NCBI GenBank assembly: GCA_018902385.1
Contig: JABSSW010000022.1
Location: 372,001 to 436,000, forward strand
Length of the DNA stretch: 64,000 nucleotides
Reading direction: 5' to 3'
Source of the DNA: Physcia stellaris
Lineage: Eukaryota > Ascomycota > Lecanoromycetes > Caliciales > Physciaceae
Notes under the pieces: generated by a model
What the model was told of the DNA's origin: nothing
Database searches by the model: none
What the model saw: only the letters and a program-made list of their open reading frames with translations
Part shown: piece after piece, positions 30,423 through 40,018 of the stretch
How the letters are laid out: the number at the start of each line of letters is the position of its first letter
Position numbering within the stretch: the stretch's first letter is position 1
Program-made: the position numbers and the translations under genes

Positions 30423-30825
30423 GCTTCTATACTTCAGACGTTTTCAATTTCCAATACGTCTAGCTGACCGCGGCTATTACAGCCAAGCACGCAAAGCCAC
30501 CCTCTCTTGCGTGGCTTGCATGATAATTTCCGAATGTTTGCTGTGTCGCGTTCACAACAATCACAACACGACGCGTTTTATGTTCGAAATTTGATTTTCT
30601 CTTTATGCGTGTTTATAATTTTGACACGATGTGCTTTATCACATGTCGAAATCGTCAACATACTTTTGATTTCGAGTACACACATTGAACGTATTACATC
30701 ACATAGAATCGCTGTATTTGAGTCCTGATAACCCTAATATGGATCAGTGGCTTGACGAGTCTTGGCTATATTATCCGCGCCGAGCTAGACGTATTGAAAT
30801 TACAAAACGTCTGCAGTATAGAAGC
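30423..30825. mobile_element. Inverted-repeat (MITE-like) element B
   Basis: A 403-bp element whose ends are about 60-bp imperfect inverted repeats (30423 to about 30484 against about 30764-30825). They start GCTTCTATACTGCAGACGTT, with one mismatch in the left arm, and continue through AATACGTCTAGCT and a CGCGG-TA-rich part. The same ends bound element A at 5473-7295. The interior has no coding frame and little similarity to A, apart from a short part resembling the Tc1 insertion site in A. It ends 160 bp before the histone H4 variant start. No target-site duplication is certain; CCCACTT occurs near both flanks but not at the exact boundary. Confidence 0.75.
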
Positions 30826-30985
30826 AACCCACTTGGACCCTAATCTTCGCCATGGTAAACACAAACTCTCACTTCGTCAACATCGAACATCCACCAAGCA
30901 CGACCGCATCCCCACCATCCTCCTTTTATTATTCCAGTCACCCGAAACCCCTAGCTCAATCCTCTCCCCATTTTTCGACTTCGAG

Positions 30986-32114
30986 ATGAAGAAAATCTTC
31001 CCGTCGTGGGGAGTGCAGCCCGGGTCTTCAGCCCCAACTCGGTCGCAACCCTCGAGTTCTTCGCGGGGCAACGCAGTGCCCGCCAGCTCCGGGGCGTCAA
31101 GGCGACCGCCACCGGGCTCAACATTCATGGGCTTTGGAGGGAAAGCAGGCAGTGGGGGCAAAGTAGGGAGTGGAGGTAAAGGACTAGGTAAATCAGGAAT
31201 GAAAAGGCATAGGTAGGCTGTTTGACCCAAGACATATTCAACGTACTTTGGGAAAAGCTTCATGGGGCTCGCTGATGAAGGCAATGATCCTTAATTGGCG
31301 TGATTCTCTATCATCCAAGTCTTTCTAGCTGGTATGTCAGGTTCATCACAGAATGAGGCTGACATAATTGTCGCCGTCTAGAAAAATAATACGGGATTCG
31401 ATACGAGGAGTCAGTAAGTACTCAATTGATCAATCAGGTCAGTCGGTCACACTGCTGACTTGATAACTCCCGTGCAGCGAAAGGAGACATACGGTATGCC
31501 TTCAACGAGACTTCTTACCATGCCGAAACTGGACGCTAAGTTCTTCCAACAGACGGCTCGCTCGCCGTGGAGGGGTGAAGCGGATATCTGGCACGATATA
31601 CGATGACGTTAGAAAGGCGATGACCGACCGTCTGAATACCGTAAGCCATTTATTCGAAGACTCTGCTCGTGGCGCGAAGACTAACCGAAATCTAAGATTC
31701 TGAGAGATTGCATCGTGGTTTTGGAACATTCGGGGAGAAAAAGTACGCTTTTATCAATGTTTGCCGTCTCAATGACTGTCGAACTTTACTAATGTCACAA
31801 TCGTTTCCGCAGCTGTCACGGTCTCTGACGTGAGTTCTCTGAGGCAACGCTTATCGATGTGCCAATGCTAACCCCAGTAAAGGTAATATTTGCACTGAAA
31901 CGAGTAAGTTTCTCTTTCAGATACTGATGCTATCAATCTGGAAACATCTCTTGATCAAAATTTGTCTCGGAGCTGCATTGTTTACAGAACTAAAGGCTAA
32001 TATAAGTTCTTCACTCCAGCTTGGCCGTCCAATCTACGGTAAGCTCTCACCCTCCCAGTAACTAAAGCAGACATGCTAAACAAATCAGGATTTGAGTCCG
32101 TAAGAGGCCGATAA
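30986..32114 (+). CDS. Histone H4 variant, nine exons
   Basis: A divergent histone H4, expected to be a nucleosome core component. Exons are 30986-31212, 31382-31413, 31478-31493, 31553-31640, 31697-31742, 31813-31829, 31883-31903, 32020-32038 and 32089-32114 (163 aa); four are only 16-21 nt. All eight introns are GT-AG and in phase. The spliced H4 part aligns to canonical H4 without gaps: GGKGLGKSGMKRHRK (tail), RRLARRGGVKRISGTIYDDV (helix 1 region), then ILRDCIVVLEHSGRKTV where H4 has VIRDAVTYTEHAKRKTV, then VIFALKR and LGRPIYGFESVRGR replacing the RTLYGFGG end. A basic Gly/Ser/Pro-rich N-terminal extension of about 60 residues starts at ATG 30986; Met at 31128 is an alternative start. Neurospora crassa is known to have an H4 variant gene (hH4v); orthology is inference. 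Inverted-repeat element B ends 160 bp upstream. Confidence 0.88.
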
Positions 32115-33114
32115 ATCGGCAACTAATATTCACTCTACAAACATCTACTGATCTCAAGTCGAAGCCGATCAGATACCGGCTCCTAATTCTGCTATCTCGA
32201 TTGCAACGTATCGCCATCCATGCAGTCTAATATGAAGTCTCGAACAGCCCGTCGGAATCAAAGCATCCCAACAAGATGAAGTCGCAGACACGCAGTTTGG
32301 AAGAGCATGTCGCTTTCCCTTTTTGACACCTCGTGGAAATTCCGTTTCCACCTCACCTAACGCATCTCGCTCGTATGATATCTCCCCCGGGCGTTATAGA
32401 GGCGTTTCTCGGAGTCATCCCGAAAGATACTGACGTTACAACGCATATTACGGCATCACAAGGATTTTTGATGCTTAAAGATTGATTTTGCGCTCGACAT
32501 CAGGCCGGTCGCACGGGGTTCTAGAGGTGGGAGGGGGAGATATTGAAAGTGCGGAGAGATATTACTTCAAACCGCGAAGTCACCTTCTTATTCAATCGTC
32601 AGTCCAAAAGTTCGGGCGCAATTGCTATCTTGCTGATATTGCATGAGTCTCGTGCGTAGGCGATCGTCCGAGATTTGTCCGACAATCGAAAATGCTTGAA
32701 TTAGGGGAACTGCCGTTTGGGTCTCCGCGCAATGCTCTGCAAGGTCCAGTCAATATCTCTTATGTCGAAGCGGGCTATTTGCAACACTTTCAAGATAGCG
32801 TCGACCTCAGATCGAACTAGAATCGCAGAGATGGGATTTTTCAAGTTTAAAGGCCATACCACACAATAATGTCAAAAGCACAATCCCAGCATGTGTTTTC
32901 AAAGCCGCTCGAACTGAACACCTCTGACAGAATCAGACCATTTCCTAAGTCTTTTCGAACCCTATCTCTACCTTCCATAATCTTTATTTTATACTCGTAC
33001 AATCGCAAGCATATAACCATGAACGCTACATTCAACCATTCTTGTTATCCCCCTTTTGAAACAGTCCACATGGTGTCCTCCGTACCATACTCCGTGCCAG
33101 CTCTCGCTTTCTTT
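32115..33114. other. Intergenic, 1 kb
   Basis: Between the convergent H4 variant and UCS genes. No gene, repeat or RNA is recognised. Confidence 0.5.
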
Positions 33115-35674
33115 TCAATCCACTCCCCCTTCATCTTTCGATCGCAGTAGCTCCAGCACCTGCTCCCCGACGGCCCGCGCCTGATCCTCACTTATCCGCT
33201 GCACTACTCGCCTCACCCGCTCCATCCCTCCAGCACGCAGCAACCTCTCTCTCCCAGCTTCCACACTAGCAACACAGCCCACCGCCACCAGGCCCCTATG
33301 CACACACCCCTCATCCTCATCCTCCACCAAAGCTAGCAGCCTCTCCACACCGCCTTCTCTATCTAGTACATTCTTCACGCCCCCTTCCGCGGTCACAACG
33401 GACGCTATAGCGCCTCCAGCCGCGCTTCGAGTGGCTATGTCCTCCGAGTCTGCCAGCGCGAGGAGGATATGGATCCGTCGCCTTGCGTCTGGTGTTGGAA
33501 GCGCGAAAAGCTCGGCCCCAGCTTGTGAAGCCGTGAGGTTGCAACAGAGCTCTGTCGCGGCGCGGGCAATCATGGAATGATTGCTCAGCACTAAGTCCTC
33601 GATCTGAGGGGTGATGAGGCGGATGATTTGCTCTGCAGTTTGCGTGTCGGGCGTTGAAGCTAGATTTGTGAGGGCGAGGAGGGCCTCGAATGTTGGGAGG
33701 AGGTCGCGCGGAGCGGAGGACATACCAGTGTTGAGCGTCTCCGGAGGCGGCGCAAGGAGCGTTAAGAGTGGGCGGATGGTGGATGATAGGGGTGGGGAGC
33801 CGGAAGGAGGGAAGACGAGGGCTGGATCGATGGAGATGAGGGTACGGGCTAGCGCGTGAGAGGCGGTGTGGCGGCATAGATGGTCCTGCGATGTGTTGCC
33901 CGCGATGGAGGTGTAGATTTGCAGGAGGAGTTTGGCGGCGCCTTGCTGGGCAAATCTCCCTCTGTTCTTGGGGTGGCGAGAGAGGGAGAGGAGGATAGAT
34001 AGCATGAGCCAGGTTGAGGCTGCGGAGAAGGTTTTGTGGGAGCGGACAAGGACCAAGACTAGGGATGTTGAAGCGGTTATGATTGCGCAACGTGTTGTGA
34101 CAGCTGCTTCCGAGTTATGGACAGATTCTTGGGTCACAGAAGGGGAGGCATTGGCGTAGGCCTTCAACTGCGCCATTTTCTTCTGCTCTTCTGACATGGT
34201 AGGGAGATACCGTGTCAGATTGTCAAAAATGGTGAGAATTCCGAAGGTAACTGTAGAGTTTTGGGTTGACTTCTTGCTGGCTTCGTTGTTGGTTCGAAGT
34301 CTCTGGATGAGCGCCTCCAGAAACTTAGTATCCTTTATAAGCTGTTCTTTGACCTCTGGTTGCGACGAAGAATATGCTAAGCCTTCGATTGAGGCGTCCT
34401 GACTTATCAAGCTTGGATCCAGCGCCATTTGTTTGAGCTTCTCGACGAGATTCTCATCCTGCTGCCCGACCTTTCCCTCATTCCCTGCCGATTGGTTAGG
34501 AGCTTGCAATTTCGCAAGTATGACAGCAGCAAGTCCGGCGTTTCTTTCACTGCCATGCTTGATAACTCCCTGAAGCCACTGCATGAAATGCGTCTGTAAT
34601 GCTTGCCGACAAGCAGTGTCGAGACACGCAGCACTGAGCATTTCGAGAGCAGCTTGCTCGACCCTGTCCGATTTGTTTTTCTTTTGTAACAGAGGTGCTA
34701 GGGATGGCACGAAGCCTTCAGTGAGGAAGAACGATGAAGCAATGGAAGGGACTAAGGGAAAGACGGCGGCGGCAGCAGAAAAGGCCAGAACAAGATCCTC
34801 ATTCTTTTGGCGTGCAAATCGGATTTGTATGAATCTTAATAGAAGCTTCTGGCCATCGGTCTGGGATGCCTCAAGGTACTTCGCAGTGGCCATAGTTGCT
34901 TGACTTCGAACCTCGACGGGTAGTCGATTATCTAGGGACGACAAGACTGCATCAAAGGTCTCCTCATCTATTAGAGAGTGCAATTTTTCGGCGTCAGCCG
35001 CTAGAAGCCTAGCAATGCCTTTCAACGCTTTGCCGTCATGGTCATGCCCGACTTCCAGAAGCTTTGCCAGGAAGAGTTGAAACACATCTCTCTCGGCAGT
35101 CTCTCGAGCTGTTTCAACGGACCAAGCTGCGGCATCGAGAACGATTGTTGCAAGATAATTGGCTGAGCTGTCACCAAGCCCGTAAAAGTCCTCGAATACA
35201 AGCGTAGCAGATTCGCCAAGCCGTTGTGCTAGGAAAGTCCTGGCACCCACACACTCTCTGAGAAGACCTGCGACAGTGCGGTCGAGAAGTTCATGAGGTC
35301 TTATTCGATCCGTGAGTAGATGCTGGAGACATTCCCTGGCGGTTTCTGCCGGGACCTCGGCCGATCTCGCGAGATAGCTGACGGCTTCCTTGCCAGCTTC
35401 TTCGCTGTTTTCGTCTACGAACTTTCGACATAGCCAGAGTAGAGGGTGTACTGCATCATCAGATTGAATCAAATCGAGAGCTTCCTTCACGTTGGTACTC
35501 TGAGGTGCAAGACTGATGGCCTCTCTGAGTGCTCTGGAGGCCTCCTGCCATGACAGTCAGCGACTGTGGCCTTTTTGCGCGACATCGACCGACCTCAGTC
35601 CGGCCTGCATCATTGAATTGGACTGCTTGAGAAGCAAGCTGATCCGCTCGAGCCTGTTCTTCGATGGGAGCCAT
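33115..35674 (-). CDS. UCS-domain myosin chaperone (She4/UNC-45/Cro1)
   Basis: A chaperone that folds and stabilises myosin heads, needed for actomyosin function and, in fungi, for cytokinesis and polarised growth. Exons (minus) are 35674-35594 and 35544-33115, with a 49-bp intron at 35545-35593; 836 aa. Exon 1 plus the start of exon 2 encodes a TPR-like segment (QAVQFNDAGRTE, EASRALREAISLAPQSTN), shorter than the three-TPR domain of animal UNC-45. The rest is armadillo-like helical repeats with UCS features such as GILTIFDNLTRYLPTMSEEQ, EQKKMAQLKAYAN and LALTNLASTPD, and a well-ordered C-terminal helical bundle. Length and layout match Cro1/She4 of ascomycetes. The ATG at 35674 is the first in frame. 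Confidence 0.88.
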
Positions 35675-36293: not shown

Positions 36294-39200
36294 TCAAACG
36301 CTTCGAGCGCTTTGTAGGCGTCTTTTGAACGATCCAGGTGCTACTTTCCGTTTCCGCTTGGTGGAAGTTTCATGAACCTCGGCGATGTCAGCGCGAGGAG
36401 TTATTATGCCTGAAGATTCTAGCGTTGTTGCATCCGTCAGCGATTCCGCACGACTCGGCAACTGAGGCTCAACAGCCTTGCGTTGAAGCTCTTGCGCCCT
36501 AAGAAAGTCGTCGTGACGGTCGTCGATTTCGATGGCCCGCTGCCGACAGAATTCACGGGCTTCGGGATTCTCTTCATGATGTTGCGTACAGCTTGGACAG
36601 CTGATATAGTATGCTTGTGTCACAGCAGGAAACCCCAAAACTTCGAACTCTTTCAGATTCTCTCCCAGAAGCTCGGTTTTGTCCCAGTCGAGACAGTCTT
36701 CGCAAAAGCCACGCTCGCACCAGCGACATCGATAGATCATGCCGCCAGCATCTGTCGTCTTCTGTTGACAGTCGAAGCATTGGTGTTGCGGGCAATTAAA
36801 GCCGATCTTAGCTTTCGACCGTGCTTTGAAGTCCCTGTCTAAGCAGAGGTAATGGAAGGACCTTGGACATCCAGAACATAGTACAAGGTCGCCTCCGTCC
36901 CAACAGACAGCACAATGCTTTCGAACAGTCAGCACAATATCATCTGAACAGAAGCTGCAAAGCGTACCTCTTGATTGATGACCTCCGGCTTCTTTTCCCT
37001 CTTCGGCTCTGCGAGACGGGGATCTTTGCCCGCCAAGGTAGGCACAGCCTCCCAATCAGCGCATTGCAAGCTCTCTTTGTTGATAGCAAAGCCATCTATC
37101 ATCACTGTAGTGTTTTTCCCAATTCGTCGTTGCTCACGCGACCATTCTTGCGAGATATCACCGTAATTAGGGACGTCTCTTGCTTTCTTGTAGGTCTTGC
37201 CCTGAAAAACTCTTGACTCAACTACCTCCATCTGAGAGAGCCACTGTTTCTCATCTTCATCTTTAATGTGGTTTTCGCTGGCTTGGCTCTTGCCACCATT
37301 GGTATCTTTTGCTACTAAGTTATCCGCGGGCTTATCCTTGCACTTCTCGAGCATTGTTTCCCAATCCCAATTGAGCATCTCGTTGACATCTAGCTCTGGA
37401 TGAGCCAAAGCCTGCGCGCCTCTCCGGACCAAAGACATGAGCTGACCGGTATCCATTTGGGGCATTTCGTCGTCTGCAGTTGATGTAAGTCGGCCACCGG
37501 GGCCTTTCTTCATTTTCGGCGTTGTATGCAGATCACGCATGCTTTCCGTAACTTTGGCTGACAGATATAGTTTCTTCTGAATGCGTCCCATCATCTGCTC
37601 TTCGACGGTGCCTTGTGTGCACAACTTGTACACCGTAACAGGCTTCGTCTGACCAATTCGGTGAGCACGAGCCTCTGCTTGGAGCATTATCTGTGGATTC
37701 CAATCTTGATCAAGCATGATACACGTCGTTGCGGCTGTCAAATTGATCCCTAGACCACCAGCGCGAGTAGAGACAAGCATAACACGATACTGAGATTCCT
37801 GCTGATTGAAAAGACGAATCCCAAGATTCCTTCGTGCACGAGCAGTGCCGCCATCGAGGCGAGCGTACTTGAATTTGGATCCATCGCCACCACGAAGTAC
37901 TAAGAAATCCTCCGTGCAGTCGAGCATTCGAGTGAAGCCTGAAAATATGAGTACTTTTTCTTTCCGATTTACCACAAGCTCGTTCACTATCTTGTCAAGG
38001 AGAATGAACTTCCCAGAAGCATGAATAATGTGATCACCTATATAGTAGGGGTTCGGCTCCGCATGGGGAAGAAGATACGGGTGGTTGCAGCATTTTCGAA
38101 GTTGCATCAATAAATTCATGAGCTTCCTCCAAGCCGACTTCTTGTTCTCGTCTTGTTGCTCGGCCTCAAGTGCTTGCTTCAAAATTTCTTTGCTTTCTTC
38201 CCAGTCCGCAGTCTTCCCGTCTTTATCAAGTGCCTCGAGCTCCTCAAGACCTTTATCTTGCCAAATAGAGCTCATCTGGTTTTCTTCTTTGAGCACAGCA
38301 GCTTCTTTGCTTTGAGCGCCTTGAAAGAGATCCTCAAGTAGACCTTGATCGGCGCGAGTGAGTAGCCGCTCGTACCAAAAGCGCTGCATAGGAGTGAGTG
38401 GGACATAAAGAAGGATGTCAGTCTTTGGAGGTAAATTAAGATCAACGCCTGGACTATTCTTCATTCTCCGCAGCATGATTAGCTCCAGTAGTCGACGGGC
38501 ATTATCCATAACCTTGGTGTCAACCTTTCCCTTCGAAAGGTCGAATGAGCTCTTGAATAACTCAGATGTCCTTTCGGTAAAGACTTCGGGGTAAAGCCAG
38601 TGGAGAAGGGCCCACAGCTCTTGCATGTTGTTCTGTAACGGGGTTCCCGTAAGGATCAAGCGATATTCAGCACCAAGCCCTTGCAGGGATCTCGAAATCT
38701 GGCTTAGATCATTCTTTATCTTGTGCCCCTCGTCTAGAATCACATAAGACCATACAAATGCTCGCTTGAACCAGCCTTGTTCGGCTGCAAAGCCTTCATA
38801 TGTAGTAACGATGAGGTCGACGCCGCGTTCGTCAATAGGATAGGATTCAGCAGGGTCTAGGTCGATAACCCCTTTACCCTGTGCAGTTCGCCGGTTGTTG
38901 AGCTTGTTCAATGATTGCGTTGTCATGTTGCCATACATATCCTCTTCACCGGTAGCAACTCTTTTCAGACGTTCCCTCTCTTTAACAGGACCATGGAAAC
39001 GTAGCACTTTCAGGCCTGGCGTCCATCGTCTTGACTCAGCCATCCAAGAAGATAGAACACTGAGGGGACAAACGACAATGGCCGGCCGCAATTCTCTGTT
39101 TCCGGAGAGCTTACGATTCTCCTTTAGATACTGAAGTAGAGACAGAGTCTGTAAAGTTTTCCCTAGGCCCATCTCGTCGCCAAGGATGCCAGAAAGACCA

Positions 39201-40018
39201 TTGCGATGTAAGTATATGAGAAACGACAATCCAGATAATTGGTACGGCTTCATGGTCGCCTTGACACCCTGAGGTTGACTAGTGAAGGCCTCGTACGGTA
39301 TATGTGTATCCGGAACATTGGTGTACTGCTCATGGCGCTGATCGACAAGCCGCTGCACATGATTTCCATCAGGGAGCAAAGGCAAGAAATAATCCTTCTT
39401 GGCAATAAAGAAGTTTGCCCTCTTAGCCGCGGTTTCGCTTGCGATCTCATCTCTGACTTCATTTCTAGCGGTCTTTGGCTGTACCTGAGCAGACGGCTGT
39501 GGCCGCAACTTCTTCTTGGTGACCTTACGCTTCTTGGCCGATGGCTTGTCTCCATTTTCTTGTGCACGTAAGGACAATTGCAGGTCCGAGTGTTGTCTCA
39601 GAGAATGGCCAGCCGATGACTTTCGGGGAGGCGGAGTTCGCTCCGGCTCCGACTCTGTGTCGATAATCTCGTTTTCCTCCTCAAGGTAGACGATAGGCTT
39701 TTTTGGGGTGGAAAATGTTGACCCAGCATTGGAAGATTCGGGATCATTTTCGTCATCTGAGATCTCGTATGACACTGGCTGCTTGCGTCGAAGGTCTCTT
39801 GAAGAATGCGTCATTTTAATCTTATACGCGGGAGGTTCGGAGATGGGCAGGGAGACCTTCTTGGGCTGTGAAGTGGGCGAGAATGCGGCTAAAAGCTGTG
39901 ACGCCGTGGTGCCTTTGTGAAATTGTACTTTCGGAGACTCATTTGATGGCCGCCTTCCGAAAGCGGAGAACAATTGTGGCTTTGTAGACGCTAAGGGCGA
40001 TAGAGGGTCCAACGACAT
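36294..40018 (-). CDS. SNF2-family chromatin-remodelling ATPase with C-terminal PHD finger
   Basis: A 1224-aa DNA translocase. Exons (minus) are 40018-36968 and 36917-36294; the 50-bp intron (GTACGC...CGAAAG) joins VINQE to HCAVCWDGGDLVLCSG. The N-terminal 220 residues are disordered and charged. The helicase core has GDEMGLGKTLQT (motif I), DEGHKIKN (II), LTGTPLQNNMQELW (III) and, in the second lobe, STRAGGLGINL and ARAHRIGQTKPV (VI). The core is of the ISWI/CHD-like type. After a linker with no recognised SANT/SLIDE comes a C4HC3 PHD finger (CAVCWDGGDLVLCSGCPRSFH) and a further Cys-rich ZnF (CRWCERGFCEDCL). PHD fingers of this acidic-pocket type often read histone H3 tails. The basic C-terminal tail (TKRKRKVAPGSFKRRLQ) is a likely nuclear signal. 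Confidence 0.92.

Follow-up and report, generated by a model that had tools for sequence, protein, structure and literature searches.

A predicted nine-exon histone H4-like gene in Physcia stellaris with the exon-intron layout of the H4E family

The locus at positions 30986-32114 of the window (64,000 nt of Physcia stellaris contig JABSSW010000022.1, G000:C22:372001-436000, from a genome of 43,974,083 bases in 147 contigs) raises the question of whether a histone H4 cut into exons as short as 16 nt is a real gene and, if so, which kind of H4 it encodes. H4 variants are rare, and for one of them, H4E, no function is known despite its presence throughout a fungal subphylum, according to the accessible text of its description (PMC10878826).

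The forward strand at this locus carries nine exons separated by eight GT-AG introns, giving a 492-nt coding sequence for 163 amino acids plus stop, with no stop codon within the spliced frame. The preliminary description had proposed nine exons, four of them 16-21 nt long, and the four short exons are borne out at 16, 17, 21 and 19 nt. The features of the locus and its neighbors are as follows (published sizes and positions are those in the accessible text of PMC10878826).

28956-30026, +, ORF upstream of the H4-like gene with an AA9 (copper mono-oxygenase) domain and a C-terminal chitin-binding domain
30986..31212, +, exon 1, 227 nt: first candidate ATG, N-terminal extension and H4-like tail to KRHR, then a phase-2 intron
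31127..31210, +, within exon 1: tail with GGK repeat units (FGGKAG SGGKVG SGGKGL GK), then SGMKRH
31213..31381, +, intron 1, 169 nt, phase 2: spliced alignment, splice signals
31382..31413, +, exon 2, 32 nt: spliced alignment; published size 29-32 nt
31414..31477, +, intron 2, 64 nt, phase 1: spliced alignment, splice signals
31478..31493, +, exon 3, 16 nt: spliced alignment; published size 16 nt
31494..31552, +, intron 3, 59 nt, phase 2: spliced alignment; without CTRAH
31553..31640, +, exon 4, 88 nt: RLARRGGVKRIS and the first part of helix 2; published size 88 nt
31641..31696, +, intron 4, 56 nt, phase 0: spliced alignment, splice signals
31697..31742, +, exon 5, 46 nt: spliced alignment; 46+17 equals the published 63-nt block
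31743..31812, +, intron 5, 70 nt, phase 1: extra intron, 46/17; published split 45/18, in Eurotiomycetes only
31813..31829, +, exon 6, 17 nt: spliced alignment
31830..31882, +, intron 6, 53 nt, phase 0, acceptor AAG: spliced alignment, splice signals
31883..31903, +, exon 7, 21 nt: spliced alignment; published size 21 nt
31904..32019, +, intron 7, 116 nt, phase 0: spliced alignment, splice signals
32020..32038, +, exon 8, 19 nt: published size 19 nt, for early-diverging classes and Lecanoromycetes
32039..32088, +, intron 8, 50 nt, phase 1: splice signals; outside the scored alignment
32089..32114, +, exon 9, 26 nt: FESVRGR-stop
33115-35490, -, ORF of a UNC45-like gene, downstream of the H4-like gene

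When canonical H4 was aligned to window positions 30700-32400 with splicing allowed, the gap-free alignment scored 261, compared with a maximum of 58 and a mean of 39.7 over 100 dinucleotide shuffles, which upholds the gap-free H4 alignment reported initially. When both strands of the window were covered by 148 tiles, the best tile away from the locus scored 64, and the three tiles above that value all overlapped the locus. Introns 1-7 were placed unaided by the canonical H4 alignment, and intron 8 (32039-32088), which lies beyond its end, was placed by splice signals and the published H4E position. The donors of all eight introns match GTRNGY, a pattern shared by about 5.5% of all window GTs, and a CTRAH branch-like motif lies within 45 nt of the acceptor in seven of the eight (background ~14-15% of window AGs), with none found within that distance in intron 3. 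If retained, seven of the introns bring in an internal stop; the eighth, intron 4, would cause a frameshift followed shortly by a stop. A phmmer search of the PDB with the spliced protein returned a histone H4 as the best match (E 1.2e-35), and the 60 matches listed, of 99 sequences, are all named histone H4. At the level of sequence, the locus is confirmed as a real, spliced H4-variant gene.

The exon sizes and intron phases point to a known family. H4E, published in 2024, includes hheA of A. nidulans (ANID_12228) and H4v of N. crassa and is spread across Pezizomycotina; its layout is given as a phase-2 intron, an exon of 29-32 nt, a phase-1 intron, 16 nt, a phase-2 intron, 88 nt and a phase-0 intron, then a 63-nt block between phase-0 introns, followed by 21 nt (accessible text of PMC10878826). 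A further phase-1 intron is described there 19 nt on in early-diverging classes and Lecanoromycetes and 18 nt on in Dothideomycetes, and lengthened tails at both termini also belong to the published description of the family. The window gene has intron phases 2,1,2,0,(1),0,0,1 and exon sizes of 32, 16, 88, 46+17=63, 21 and 19 nt. Phases 2, 1, 2 and 0 around the exons of 32, 16 and 88 nt are thus present, as are the 63-nt block followed by 21 nt, though the block is cut 46/17 by a phase-1 intron, and the 19-nt exon 8 followed by a phase-1 intron. Such a layout points tentatively to Lecanoromycetes or to one of the early-diverging classes. Both tails are longer than in canonical H4, by four residues at the C-terminus and by nine or 56 at the N-terminus, depending on the start codon. 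One detail of the source bears on this match: the sizes are 60/18/21 nt in the legend of its Figure 1a but 63 (45+18) and 21 nt in the main text. The window gene agrees with the text and not the legend, whose sizes fit an Aspergillus form with five added codons.

We conclude that the window gene, as judged by the published layout, is a member of the H4E family. The tiny exons are the signature of that family, so the view that they are a peculiarity of this locus is refuted by a layout conserved across Pezizomycotina (PMC10878826). The initial comparison with Neurospora hH4v was right: H4v is the H4E orthologue of N. crassa by the same source. The remark that the role of such variants is unclear also holds, as the H4E paper reports that no function was found. 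What is new here is a slightly unusual H4E member, not a new kind of protein; the window copy adds a combination of introns, a location outside the reported synteny and the idea of a lost tyrosine stack with H2B.

In the conserved core, in intron phases and exon sizes and in the longer tails at both ends, the gene is like the H4Es described from Pezizomycotina, but it differs in its extra intron. The 63-nt block is split as 45/18 only in Eurotiomycetes and usually with added codons (accessible text of PMC10878826), whereas here the split is 46/17, one base off, without inserted codons and in company with the 19-nt exon. No description of this combination was found in the accessible text of that paper. 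The 46/17 intron may be an old intron that slid or a new gain.

Two canonical H4 genes were found in the genome, one on contig C26 adjoining a divergent H3 gene and the other on C8. Neither has an intron position in common with the H4E gene, which is separate from both. A genome search with the spliced H4E protein gave eight matches, three to this gene, four to the canonical genes and one weak (E 0.06); therefore, no second H4E was found by this search. A weak H4 match on C2 (E 0.62) was also recorded. Among contigs from prokaryote genomes, where relatives could occur as contaminants, 67 pattern matches yielded none that was confirmed.

The order nudA-hheA-svf1 is reported for Eurotiomycetes and Dothideomycetes and is not claimed for other classes in the accessible text of PMC10878826. 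In this genome nudA (dynein heavy chain) and svf1 are adjacent on the minus strand (C22:88283-95456) and, unlike in Aspergilli, the H4E gene is not between them; it is found ~308 kb from them on that contig, and the synteny is absent. The nudA gene was located with the DHC_N2 profile, the Dynein_C profile having no match in the genome. An H4 relic between nudA and svf1 was considered and rejected: four spliced searches of C22:86501-96500 scored 76, 60, 56 and 58, with respective maxima of 72, 68, 67 and 69 over 20 shuffles each, and the 76, which spans low-similarity sequence, was taken as noise. Two genes from the H4E gene, an ORF for a SNF2-type helicase (window 36294-40018, minus strand) is overlapped downstream by a PHD-finger ORF, and the two probably form a single intron-containing gene for a chromatin remodeller.

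We compared the H4E gene with the canonical gene on C26 and obtained a pN of 0.286 and a pS of 0.917, the latter saturated. The two share 59 of 97 residues; in 2000 trials of random substitution to equal nucleotide divergence, of which 90 stayed stop-free, no more than 39 residues survived. This indicates that purifying selection acted on the H4E gene in the past and does not imply present use. Codon bias lent the gene no support: the core scored -7.4 bits/100 nt in frame, the best of the forward frames, and -3.4 in the best reverse frame; the reference values are -2.8 for the 10th percentile of 130 coding chunks and -6.9 to 1.8 for nine noncoding chunks. Over the whole coding sequence the score was -4.7 in frame, -10.2 and -12.3 in the other forward frames and -3.2 in the best reverse frame. 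A poor score would fit weak expression, although the test is a weak one.

Taken together, we consider it quite probable that the locus is the intact, spliced H4E (hheA / H4v) gene of a filamentous ascomycete and encodes a minor H4 variant, because the intron phases and exon sizes match the published layout, the alignment scored 261 against 58 and the gene was constrained in the past. Several observations count against this reading: the core codon-bias score of -7.4 with a better reverse frame; the sizes in the Figure 1a legend of the H4E paper, which do not fit the window gene; the 46/17 split and the location far from nudA-svf1, which both deviate from the described H4E pattern; a change in helix 2, F61R, which could weaken pairing with H3; and the lack of a phenotype when H4E is deleted in A. 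nidulans. The poor codon-bias scores and the move away from nudA-svf1, along with H4E losses in several lineages (accessible text of PMC10878826), would also suit a recently inactivated H4E whose frames are still open and whose expression is gone. We find this unlikely given nine open exons, donors near consensus in all eight introns and the strong past constraint. Still less probable is an H4 duplicate of independent origin, with no orthology to H4E and with introns acquired on its own. Its location outside the nudA-svf1 synteny and a 46/17 intron without description in the accessible text of PMC10878826 speak for such an origin, but phases and sizes match at the other seven introns, and the need for a separate gain at seven sites makes it very unlikely. 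The same source describes H4E trees as weak in signal and unstable. A kinetochore protein of the CENP-T type, suggested by CENP-T_C (PF15511) as the sole Pfam match (E 0.00054), is the least credible reading, since the 20.5 bits fall below the cut-off of 28.1, this genome's canonical H4 genes match the same profile at 32.2 and 29.8 bits and all 60 of the PDB matches listed are named histone H4; the Pfam comparison proposed earlier thus leaves CENP-T membership unsupported.

Compared with canonical H4 of the C26 type, the predicted H4E protein is identical at 59 of 99 aligned residues without gaps, and it is in helix 2 (8/28), as in the intron positions, that it departs from the canonical H4s of C26 and C8. 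By region, identity is 16/20 in the tail, 12/17 in helix 1, 8/28 in helix 2 and 7/11 in helix 3, so that of the divergence initially ascribed to helices 2 and 3, the first part stands and the second does not, helix 3 being largely kept. Similarly, the C-terminal YGFGG was thought to be replaced, but YGF is kept and the last GG alone gives way to ESVRGR. K8, K12, K16, K20, K44, R45, K79, K91 and F100 are kept and K5 is Ser; K16 is lost in many published H4Es (accessible text of PMC10878826). The changes include F61R, T71V, Y72V, T73L, K77G and Y88F, and D68, E74, H75, D85 and R92 are retained.

Counted from the ATG at 30986, the N-terminal extension relative to canonical H4 has 56 residues, and from the in-frame ATG at 31127 it has nine; both ATGs are candidate starts. 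The ~60 extra residues first proposed would hold for the upstream ATG (56) and not for the downstream one; the extension is thus possibly 56 residues, compared with 5 in A. nidulans (accessible text of PMC10878826). Codon bias in the extension, with the boundary set at 31129, two bases off the ATG at 31127, was lower in frame (-2.0 bits/100 nt) than in a second forward frame (1.7) or a reverse frame (3.9). Adjacent 18-nt units of the GGK tail are identical at 12 of 18 bases, and for that reason we call it a weak DNA repeat. Further upstream, an ATG in good context (GCCATGG, 30852-30854) opens a short frame (window 30852-30985, +), and a candidate 83-nt intron (30855-30937), in which the branch motif is absent, would if spliced put that ATG in the H4E frame.

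By orthology with A. nidulans H4E, which localises to the nucleus and interacts with H3 by BiFC (accessible text of PMC10878826), the protein would be nuclear and pair with canonical H3. In human nucleosomes H4 Tyr72 and Tyr88 stack with H2B Tyr83; T. brucei, in which two of the three stack tyrosines are missing, is reported to have unstable interfaces, and Melbournevirus particles are noted to show a similar loss (accessible text of PMC10450195). Asp68, Tyr72, Glu74, His75, Asp85, Tyr88 and Arg92 of H4 are at the equivalent H4-H4' interface (accessible text of PMC9659345). We tentatively suggest that the H2A-H2B-binding face is altered in H4E: T71V, Y72V, T73L and Y88F eliminate the tyrosines of the stack with H2B, and D68, E74, H75, D85 and R92 stay. 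The loss of the Tyr72/Tyr88 stack is common to the T. brucei and Melbournevirus nucleosomes and the window protein, an analogy of mechanism without a claim of kinship. Nucleosomes with H4E would be looser and release H2A-H2B more easily. The tail would present K8, K12, K16 and K20 preceded by two GGK lysines, which would leave room for control dependent on acetylation. Deposition would be in small amounts, perhaps under starvation, as we assume from A. nidulans, where deletion of H4E gave no phenotype (accessible text of PMC10878826). A literature search of partial coverage found no later functional work on H4E. It is a doubtful proposal, taken whole, that H4E here is a destabilised, acetylation-ready nucleosome part, its H2B-facing tyrosines gone and GGK units gained ahead of K8/K12/K16/K20, and that, judging by the 46/17 intron beside the 19-nt exon, the intron reported from Eurotiomycetes alone predates the class and slid by one base.

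Other histone-like sequences were noted elsewhere in the genome. Diverged H3 exons at C7:99255-99667 (L017, L023) have what we take to be a resemblance to centromeric H3 (CENP-A). Twelve of the 20 PF00125 loci examined, of 42 matches, are in AT-rich DNA with CC observed/expected of 0.00-0.13 and CG of 2.5-4.4. Degraded H3-like segments are carried by dispersed long repeats (L038, C30:137501-147500; L039, C59:156001-166000; L040, C6:437001-447000; L041, C27:573001-583000), whose aligned pieces are mostly 92-96% alike and which hold up to three H3 segments per copy, often in opposite orientations. In Dothideomycetes hAT transposons are known to have captured H3, there with CpA bias (accessible text of PMC6710886), whereas CpA is not depleted in the H3-like repeats here, so CpC and CpT seem to have been the targets of the C-to-T change. 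Pseudogenes of rRNA with RIP of the CpA type have been described (accessible text of PMC5555474). The sole 5.8S rRNA match found in this genome is in a mutated, rDNA-like relic (L015, C41:44500-48800, minus strand) with observed/expected ratios of 0.03 for CC, 0.44 for CT and 2.97 for CG, compared with 0.96 for CC and 0.87 for CG in the window; its loss is of the CpC/CpT type, as in the H3-like repeats.
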